Assembly (NCBI GenBank): GCA_030057555.1
Contig: JASGUU010000037.1
Location: forward strand, 1-39,830
From: Bacillota bacterium
GTDB lineage: Bacteria > Bacillota > Clostridia > Saccharofermentanales > Fastidiosipilaceae
Reading direction: 5' to 3'
Length of the DNA: 39,830 nt
Shown here in pieces: positions 17,258 through 18,382 of this stretch. Below the pieces are notes generated by a model that was not told the DNA's origin, ran no database searches, and worked only from the letters and a program-made list of their open reading frames with translations. The stretch's first letter is position 1, and every line of letters begins with the position of its first letter. The position numbers and the translations under genes are program-made.

Positions 17258-18382
17258 ATGATGAGACAGAAAAAGCTTGGCACTTTTTTGAGCCTGCTGC
17301 TGGTGATTGGTCTGGTCTTTGGTCAGGCTGCCTGTGGCAAAAAGGATTCGGTGCCGACGAACAACGCAGTTAAGACGACCGAAAGTGCGAAAGAGGGCGG
17401 CGGTACGCTCCTGCTGCGTGTCAACCCCGAAATTGCCGTGACCTATGACGCCAGGGGTATTGTGACCAAAATCGAGGGGCGCAATGACGATGCCCGTGAA
17501 ATCGTCAAGGTGGCCGACGAGCTGATCGGCAAGCCGAGCCGCGAGGTGGTTGCTCTCCTGATTGCGGCGCTGAACGAGAGTGGCTATCTCATCGATGAAG
17601 TCGAGGGAGAGGGCAACACCATCACCATTGAACTCGAGGATGGTTCGGAAGTGCCGTCAGCCAGGTTCCTGCAGGAGATCGTTTCGGATATCCGGCGTGT
17701 TGTGAACGAGATTGGCATTTCCAGCACGATCCGTCTGAACCGCGGTGGTGATGACTGGAGAGATTACGACTCCGATGACGACGATGACTTCGACGACGAC
17801 GATGACGACGACGATGACTTCGACGACGATGATGATGATGACTTCGACGACCGTGACGACGACGACGACTTCGACGACGATGACGACGATGACTTCGACG
17901 ACCGTGACGATGATGACGACCGCGACGACGATGATGACCGCGACGACGATGATGACGATGATGATGATGACGATGATGATGATGACGATGATGATGACAG
18001 GCGGACCACCCGTCCGACCACCCGTCCGACCACTCGTCAGACCACCCGTCCGACCACCCGTCCGACGACACGTGCTACCACCCGCTCGACCACGGCCCCG
18101 AAGCGTGACGACGATGACGATGATGACGACGATTATGATGATGACGACGATGACAACGATGATGACGATGATGACGACTATGTAGCGCCGACAACCACCC
18201 GTCCGACCACTGCTCCGACCACTGCTCCGACCACCCGTCCGACCACCGCTCCGACCACCCGTCCGACTTCCGCGCCGAGGCCCGACGACGACGATGACGA
18301 TGATGATGACGACGATGACGATGACGACGATGATGACGACGACGATGATGATGACGACGATGACGACGATGACGACGATTGA
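17258..18382 (+). CDS. Lipoprotein with RsgI-like domain and poly-aspartate tail
   Basis: 374 residues. A signal peptide ends at a lipobox-like QAAC (Cys26; Gln at -3 is atypical). Residues about 48-157 (LLLRVNPEIAVTYDARG, IEGRNDDARE, LIGKPSREVVALLIAALNESGYL) resemble the middle domain of RsgI-type anti-sigma factors. From about residue 165 the protein is low-complexity: Asp runs broken by Phe, Arg and Tyr, two PTT/TTR-repeat linkers, and a terminal run of 32 Asp. I count about 125 Asp in the last 210 residues. Asp codons are mixed GAC/GAT, so the tract is kept as protein, not as a simple DNA repeat. ATG 17258 or 17261 both fit AAGGAG. It is probably surface-exposed and cation-binding; function unknown. 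Confidence 0.8.
   Translation: MMRQKKLGTFLSLLLVIGLVFGQAACGKKDSVPTNNAVKTTESAKEGGGTLLLRVNPEIAVTYDARGIVTKIEGRNDDAREIVKVADELIGKPSREVVALLIAALNESGYLIDEVEGEGNTITIELEDGSEVPSARFLQEIVSDIRRVVNEIGISSTIRLNRGGDDWRDYDSDDDDDFDDDDDDDDDFDDDDDDDFDDRDDDDDFDDDDDDDFDDRDDDDDRDDDDDRDDDDDDDDDDDDDDDDDDDRRTTRPTTRPTTRQTTRPTTRPTTRATTRSTTAPKRDDDDDDDDDYDDDDDDNDDDDDDDYVAPTTTRPTTAPTTAPTTRPTTAPTTRPTSAPRPDDDDDDDDDDDDDDDDDDDDDDDDDDDDDDDD

Follow-up and report, generated by a model that had tools for sequence, protein, structure and literature searches.

A putative sigma-I-controlled lipoprotein with an RsgI-type domain and an aspartate-rich tail in a Clostridia genome

Architecture of the lipoprotein and its gene

The window, that is, the whole stretch of 39,830 nucleotides that was analysed, contains a gene for a lipoprotein of 374 amino acids, composed of a signal peptide, a SEAL/RsgI_M domain and an Asp-rich tail. 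The features identified at this locus are as follows.

17131..17164, + strand: sigma-I-type promoter, with -35 element GACCCC (17131-17136), 20-nt spacer and -10 element CGTAGTCT (17157-17164); pattern search
17173..17188, + strand: leader hairpin GGAGC-(6)-GCTCC, just past the expected transcription start; RNA folding
17249..17255, + strand: probable ribosome-binding site; direct reading of the sequence
17258..18382, + strand: lipoprotein gene (signal peptide, SEAL/RsgI_M domain, Asp-rich tail); open reading frame and Pfam
17258..17335, + strand: type II signal peptide with lipobox Cys26 (QAAC); visual inspection of the sequence
17399..17740, + strand: SEAL/RsgI_M autocleavage-type domain, residues 48-161; Pfam, AlphaFold2 model and fold match
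17423..17428, + strand: Asn56-Pro57, predicted self-cleavage dipeptide; alignment and PDB chain starts
17750..17999, + strand: Asp tail block 1, interspersed with F/R/Y/W; translation
18000..18105, + strand: TTRP-type linker 1; 12-bp repeat
18106..18183, + strand: Asp tail block 2, with Y/N; translation and repeats
18184..18283, + strand: PTTAP-type linker 2; 12/36-bp repeats
18284..18379, + strand: C-terminal run of 32 Asp; codon count
18482..18514, + strand: intrinsic terminator-like site, 15 pairs followed by a T-run; terminator scan

The sequence-only reading had described a secreted lipoprotein, and this is borne out by the lipoprotein-type signal and by Cys26, the position of which is invariant in 23 of 23 aligned homologues. 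A search of NCBIfam returned no match for the protein (E up to 10). Because of the terminator-like site at 18482-18514, the gene is probably transcribed alone here; two such sites were detected in the gene region, against a shuffle mean of 0.7. RNA folding yielded a leader hairpin similar to this one in genome G001, and inverted repeats of at least 12 bases were not found near the gene by a repeat search. A plasmid or phage origin was considered and rejected, with no match in the plasmid or phage collection at E 0.01.

The tail was found to be as described earlier, with TTRP- and PTTAP-type linkers and an end of 32 Asp. The protein contains 132 Asp, of which 124 lie within the last 210 residues, and the longest Asp runs are of 32 (C-terminal), 19, 9 and 9 residues. 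GAC and GAT encode these residues in a ratio of 73/59 and in an order that cannot be told from random (53 of 108 adjacent pairs are equal, against a shuffle mean of 54.2), and the longest run of identical codons is 5. Thus, the tail is not a pure microsatellite, and it is the protein sequence and not a DNA repeat that is kept, in agreement with the earlier view that the amino acid is under selection. In the 2.9-Mb assembly, runs of eight or more Asp codons (GAY) are confined to two genes, the lipoprotein gene with 41 of 45 overlapping matches and gene three of the own sigI-rsgI operon with the other 4; the reversed-pattern control gave 0. Absence or frameshifting of the tail in relatives, which had been put forward as a sign of an artefact, is mostly not what was observed: nearly every translated homologue has an in-frame, Asp-rich tail. 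The exceptions are the G400 homologue (L222:4478-5290, +), which has no lipobox and carries an Asn version of the tail (NNNSNYNNN), with VTC and DUF4956 genes still downstream, and the G335 homologue and the second G385 copy (L221 and L220), which have PepSY repeats and merely a short acidic end. The ratio of Asp to Glu is 1095:64 in the lipoprotein tails and 764:79 in the RsgI tails, compared with 323:367 for 13 further proteins encoded in the window. Thrombospondin type 3 or other calcium repeats gave no Pfam match in the lipoprotein (E to 10) or in eight proteins of relatives (seven lipoproteins and one RsgI; E to 5), those with DTDYGPNNDGVTD tails included, low-complexity tails being poorly modelled in such searches. 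Known calcium-binding Pfam families were likewise not matched among the proteins scanned, namely the lipoprotein of the window and the eight of relatives.

As judged by profile and fold, the globular part of the lipoprotein is a genuine RsgI-type periplasmic (SEAL) domain, which upholds the RsgI-like assignment of the sequence-only reading. Pfam RsgI_M (PF23750) matches it with an E value of 9.5e-10 and scores 39.6 bits, above the cut-off of 25.3. AlphaFold2 models the domain with confidence (block mean pLDDT 91-97 for residues 51-110), and the modelled fold matches that of Bacillus subtilis RsgI (8t9n_B) with Z 14.3 over 103 residues and an rmsd of 2.1. The six top-ranked structures are without exception periplasmic domains of RsgI (Z 14.3 to 8.6), and the next match has a Z of 5.4. 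The PDB sequence search with the single lipoprotein sequence gave nothing relevant; a profile of 17 sequences, that of the window included, matched B. subtilis RsgI 8t9n (E 6.4e-7) and, more weakly, Clostridium thermocellum RsgI chains. The PepSY relationship proposed before finds no Pfam match in this lipoprotein up to E 10, and applies to many homologues, in which PepSY domains do occur.

The dipeptide Asn56-Pro57 is located between strands 1 and 2 (E49-54 and E58-63) of the domain; it is invariant in 23 of 23 lipoproteins and present in 24 of 24 paired RsgIs. Pro57 aligns with residue 1 of the C. thermocellum PDB chains 8hep_B, 8her_B and 8u9o_B (letters displayed for 8hep_B alone). Chains starting at the matching Pro agree with the self-cleavage that has been reported for RsgI (PMC12203970), and the lipoprotein is likewise predicted to cleave itself at Asn56-Pro57.

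Sigma-I-type promoters and the sigI-rsgI operon

Sigma-I promoters are reported to contain CGWA in the -10 element and an A-tract in the -35 element (PMC10575876). The upstream regions of 23 homologues share the element GACCCC(G)NTT...CGTAATCT, which fits the CGWA of the -10 element and, in most homologues, the A-tract of the -35 element. At the lipoprotein gene of the window, the -10 element contains CGTA at 17157-17160, the spacing equals that at the genome's own sigI within one base, and GACCCC is followed by TT, compared with TTT or TTTT in most relatives. A fixed form of this pattern occurs in 21 of the 23 homologue upstream regions and before the genome's own sigI, and in 2.0% of 20000 random 220-bp windows of the same loci, true sites included; it was composed after viewing these 23 upstream regions and the own sigI, so that independent evidence comes from the additional sigI and CAP sites and from the control, which was empty. 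Across the own genome, a loose pattern gave three sites (the own sigI, the lipoprotein gene and one probably due to chance) against two for the reversed control, and a strict pattern gave two against none. When applied to 20 genomes, the strict pattern was found at 31 sites in 18 genomes, with 0 for the reversed control; by manual assignment, the genes behind these sites are 19 lipoprotein genes, 8 sigI genes, 2 genes for CAP-type secreted proteins and 2 others. The CAP-type proteins are L207:678-2345 (+) in G001, identified by Pfam CAP, and L208 (site 4454, -) in G021, identified by eye. G040 (L032, L016) and G021 (L013, L031; in tandem) have two lipoprotein copies each, and each of these copies has its own sigma-I-type promoter. 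No sigma-70-type promoter was found at 17050-18700. These promoter motifs suggest that the lipoprotein gene is activated by the very regulator whose own sensor has a matching tail.

The genome's own sigI (L004:6777-7508, -) and rsgI (L004:5821-6780, -) are located on contig C24, which is not the contig of the lipoprotein gene. SigI matches SigI models with a best E value of 4.9e-51, but below the curated cut-offs. RsgI consists of an RsgI_N domain, a hydrophobic segment read as a transmembrane helix, a SEAL domain with Asn-Pro and a Thr/Pro linker, and ends in DDDDDLDDDDDDDLDDDD; its tail contains 19 Asp in the last 90 residues, fewer than the lipoprotein. The third gene of this operon (L004:4824-5879, -), the open reading frame of which starts inside the poly-Asp tract of rsgI in a different frame, probably encodes a lipoprotein; the product has PepSY, a run of 11 Asp and a region that resembles SEAL and lacks Asn-Pro. 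G001 has a gene of this kind (L033). Also near sigI, a large secreted-looking protein (L004:2249-4501, +) has LRR-like and InlB B-repeat regions and shares repeats of the type IAVFRxGxKTxY with the CAP protein of G001.

Is the lipoprotein itself a sensor? An RsgI_N domain was not matched in it up to E 10, and, from a reading of the sequence, the lipobox Cys26 provides the anchor in place of the single transmembrane helix of RsgI; the gene is also not beside the own sigI-rsgI. Because no anti-sigma domain was found, the lipoprotein is unlikely to be the signalling sensor, a role that falls to the RsgI on the other contig, with an Asp-rich tail of its own. The earlier idea of a cation sensor coupled to the RsgI-like fold thus keeps a plausible tie to sensing, and loses the assignment of the sensor to this protein. 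The lipoprotein is probably a paralogue of the RsgI ectodomain that is anchored by lipid and belongs to a sigma-I circuit.

Gene order and matching tails in related genomes

With the single domain as the query, matches were obtained in 25 of 98 related genomes (the own genome included), some of them to RsgIs alone, and the lipoprotein itself is present in 19 of the 98. A survey of 391 genomes of the class, sampled from a larger group, gave matches at 1e-10 in 11, again including the own genome; G172, which matched at 1.3e-11 in this survey, has no Asp-rich or matching Asn-Pro open reading frame. One match lies in an Eisenbergiella assembly. A different RsgI_M-like type, with another N-terminus and PepSY-like repeats, was observed at L155 (G032), L156 (G003), L158 (G087), L161 (G025) and L162 (G017), in some cases with Asp runs between the repeats.

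Co-occurrence of the lipoprotein with RsgI_N was analysed first within families f1 and f3 taken together, where 15 genomes have both, 4 the lipoprotein only, 2 RsgI_N only and 24 neither (Fisher p 1.2e-6); for all 98 genomes the corresponding numbers are 15, 4, 20 and 59 (p 2.4e-5), although 20 of the 79 lipoprotein-free genomes have RsgI_N, which counts against the pairing. Three of the four genomes with the lipoprotein only (G007, G052 and G083) encode an RsgI_M protein directly upstream. G058 has the lipoprotein and no detected RsgI, and G073 has an Asp-tailed RsgI and no detected lipoprotein. The rsgI gene is immediately upstream of the lipoprotein gene in 7 of the 19 genomes (G007, G043, G049, G052, G083, G091 and G095), in 6 of 10 other genomes of the class (G333, G318, G186, G237, G385 and G419) and at L036, and about 1.1 kb from it in G298. 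The L035 locus has a CotH gene between rsgI and the lipoprotein gene, upstream of the latter, and VTC and DUF4956 genes downstream.

The next downstream family is a VTC-domain protein in 15 of the 19 lipoprotein genomes, the others being G000, G001, G007 and G049. CotH follows VTC in 12 of these 15 genomes, with DUF4956 seen between them in 11, and the contigs of G083, G085 and G095 end before that point. Among the neighbours that recur in at least three homologue neighbourhoods, the families with a constant place and strand are sigI, VTC, DUF4956 and CotH, with D-rich rsgI genes excluded from this count and counted separately. Judging from this order, the lipoprotein, VTC, DUF4956 and CotH genes are probably on one transcript in most relatives. 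The VTC and CotH genes of the own genome are located elsewhere (contig C66). One DUF4956 protein (L055:2100-2771, -) shows a weak similarity to MgtC/SapB (NCBIfam E 1.7e-6, below the cut-off).

The last 90 residues of RsgI contain 13-63 Asp in all 24 genomes where both proteins were readable, a set that excludes G046 (RsgI cut by the contig end) and G058. For genomes without the lipoprotein, the number is 0-7 in 16 of 17, and 23 in G073; these low-Asp genomes belong mostly to other families (f2 and f4), so that the contrast is confounded with kinship. For the latter set, a single RsgI_N locus was used in each genome, and its longest Asn-Pro-bearing frame of more than 200 codons was taken as RsgI; 3 of 20 could not be recovered and are excluded, and 2 of the 17 counted run off the end of the locus. 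Tails of RsgI and lipoprotein from the same genome are more alike than those from different genomes, with a permutation p of 3e-4 for two- and three-letter words and 0.002 for single letters, the 24 pairs being pooled into 13 groups. In a tree with several long branches, and hence some unsure placements, the lipoprotein domains all fall on one side of a branch with support 96/92, and three RsgIs (G040, G085 and G037) adjoin the lipoprotein clade (94/88). The position of the lipoprotein domains on one side of this branch means that recent duplication does not explain the likeness of the tails. The tails probably changed together after one old duplication, or were exchanged.

Dense [S/T]-x-Y motifs (DDSDYDD, TDYNDTDYGPNNDGV) were observed in tails encoded by genes that precede VTC and/or CotH. 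The median number per 100 tail residues is 7.4 (1.7-13.3) at 23 linked loci and 0 (0-3.6) at 7 unlinked loci, with a p value of 5e-5, and RsgI tails show the same trend (18 linked and 5 unlinked; p 1e-3); both p values overstate the case because the loci are related by descent and the motif was picked with the tails already known. Here, "linked" means VTC and/or CotH directly downstream, assigned manually with 3 of 33 loci dropped for contig ends (G186 has CotH with no VTC seen), and any PepSY was counted as part of the tail region. The five genomes without detected CotH (G001, G007, G049, G419 and that of L036) have 0, 1, 1, 0 and 0 motifs, respectively, the G007 tail being cut by a contig end, and the difference holds in close comparisons of G049 with G052 and G083, and of G419 with G298 of the same genus. 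There are counter-cases: the unlinked second copy in G040 has eight motifs, with CotH elsewhere in that genome, and the linked G186 has an RsgI tail without the motif. The lipoprotein tail of the window, whose genome has its CotH gene elsewhere, is also without [S/T]-x-Y. The distribution of the motif suggests that CotH acts on the tail.

A proposed sensor-effector circuit and its alternatives

Built on the domain, the dipeptide, the promoter motif, the shared tails and the gene order, which were established computationally, the following circuit is proposed. In C. thermocellum RsgI6, autocleavage and loss of the cleaved domain are reported to be followed by degradation by RseP and then ClpXP, by which sigma-I is freed (PMC12203970). 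The SEAL domain of the exported lipoprotein would cut itself at Asn56-Pro57, and the lipidated stub would keep the fragment from P57 to the tail by beta-strand pairing alone, which would make the Asp-rich tail releasable. The transmembrane anti-sigma factor RsgI of the same cell follows this plan, its SEAL domain, predicted to cleave itself, being succeeded by a Thr/Pro linker and the Asp-rich tail. Upon contact of the RsgI tail with its stimulus, the cleaved domain would detach, RseP and then ClpXP would degrade RsgI, and the freed sigma-I would transcribe sigI-rsgI and the lipoprotein gene. The lipoprotein would add many copies of a like polyanionic tail at the surface and could shed them, competing for or removing the stimulus and so forming a feedback loop. 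Its most likely role would be that of a releasable surface polyanion, made on sigma-I activation and occupying what the RsgI tail senses. We hold the circuit itself, that is, sigma-I control and partnership with RsgI, with considerable confidence; the feedback mechanism is a close call that we leave slightly on the side of doubt; and the explanation as a whole, a sigma-I-controlled, lipid-anchored RsgI ectodomain paralogue with a releasable tail and feedback, is judged rather probable.

Known RsgI systems are polysaccharide sensors acting via carbohydrate-binding modules or, in B. subtilis, serve wall homeostasis. The lipoprotein resembles the RsgI anti-sigma-I factors (C. thermocellum RsgI1-9 and B. 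subtilis RsgI) in its SEAL/RsgI_M domain, Asn-Pro, linker, C-terminal extension and sigma-I-type promoter, but has a lipobox, no RsgI_N and a poly-Asp extension instead of a carbohydrate-binding module. Dentin phosphoprotein, calsequestrin and mollusc shell proteins, which bind calcium or mineral, are alike in their long Asp-rich stretches, an analogy only. The gene order also has published counterparts. A VTC/polyphosphate-polymerase gene is named together with CotH and DUF4956 in Gram-positive pel operons (PMC7112168), as near the lipoprotein genes, and in C. perfringens NELoc-2 a gene named as a sigma-I factor and a gene for a 348-residue hypothetical protein precede VTC, with CotH also there (PMC2879425). 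The excerpts of these two accounts mention neither an Asp-tailed autocleaving lipoprotein nor a sigma-I promoter. Literature searches gave, by title and abstract, no fitting account for RsgI with lipoprotein and SigI, and none for RsgI with polyaspartate or for the anti-sigma factor RsgI with PepSY; RsgI was not among the matches listed for Asp-rich proteins, and no published account joining VTC-DUF4956-CotH to an RsgI-like lipoprotein was among the matches listed.

Sensor and product thus seem, as read from the genomes, to form one unrecognised cell-surface circuit. It would define a group of RsgIs, the hosts of which are probably Clostridia, with an Asp-rich tail instead of a carbohydrate-binding module and with a lipid-anchored copy of the ectodomain behind a sigma-I-type promoter. 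The circuit would give a testable output for an uncharacterised branch of sigma-I, suggest a protein substrate of CotH outside spores, and place the VTC-DUF4956-CotH cluster under a defined regulator. It also advises caution: resemblance to RsgI does not make a lipoprotein an anti-sigma factor, nor need such a protein be a metal buffer in isolation. A further step, which we regard as tentative and on present evidence unlikely, is that the linked CotH kinase phosphorylates the tails of both sensor and effector, perhaps with polyphosphate made by VTC, such that sigma-I would build and monitor a phosphorylated surface polyanion. If true, this would be a bacterial counterpart of kinase-made mineral-binding phosphoproteins.

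What would the tails sense or bind? The disordered region of B. subtilis RsgI has reportedly been proposed to be a probe of cell-wall gaps, and the tails could likewise be entropic, disordered probes, with Asp just keeping the chain extended and off the anionic wall. The action of B. subtilis sigma-I in cell-wall homeostasis (PMC7478892) speaks for such a role, as do the variation of tail sequence at constant composition and the other low-complexity tails often seen in RsgIs without a lipoprotein partner. Yet an entropic probe predicts neither Asp over Glu, nor the matching of RsgI and lipoprotein tails, nor the VTC-DUF4956-CotH genes, and we give it a minority chance. Divalent cations or a cationic polymer are favoured as the ligand over a merely extended chain because of the Asp bias and the linked enzymes. 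Pel- and PNAG-like exopolysaccharides are cationic, and the tails might bind a polycation of this kind, or cationic antimicrobial peptides, with RsgI sensing it and the lipoprotein retaining or sequestering it. CotH, poly-phosphate polymerase and DUF4956 are accessory genes of the Gram-positive pel operons (PMC7112168), and a membrane GT2 gene (15334-16728, -), syntenic in G001, adjoins the lipoprotein gene on its upstream side. The GT2 protein is EpsU/PgaC-like far below the cut-offs. Its absence among the neighbours recurring in at least three genomes counts against a polycation, a reading that we consider, too, possible and on balance unlikely.

Farther from the sigma-I circuit is the idea that the tail acts by itself at the surface, buffering or scavenging Mg2+/Ca2+ in connection with mgtE and mgtC and independently of sigma-I. 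The extreme Asp richness, with Asp strongly preferred over Glu, would suit a buffer, and both genes are indeed in the window (MgtE, 12648-13997, -; MgtC, 29880-30716, -), as the sequence-only reading had pointed out. The functional link that it drew from them is unsupported: mgtE is syntenic in the one congener and is absent among the neighbours recurring in at least three genomes, so that the association was rejected as local synteny. Promoter, gene order and matched RsgI tails place the lipoprotein in the sigma-I circuit. More of the evidence is covered by such a sensor-effector circuit than by a metal buffer on its own, a reading that we regard as improbable. An artefact of replication slippage or assembly, to which a low-complexity tract in a draft genome of 90 contigs might be prone, is refuted by the irregular GAC/GAT order and by the intact frames and Asp-rich tails in separate genomes, and its probability is negligible.

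Two repeats were observed elsewhere in the window. A 71-bp tandem repeat of 2.2 copies (30754-30906) adjoins mgtC, and an 18-bp repeat array (39245-39367) lies inside the coding region of a PBP_like_2 protein (39092-39829, +) that runs off the window.
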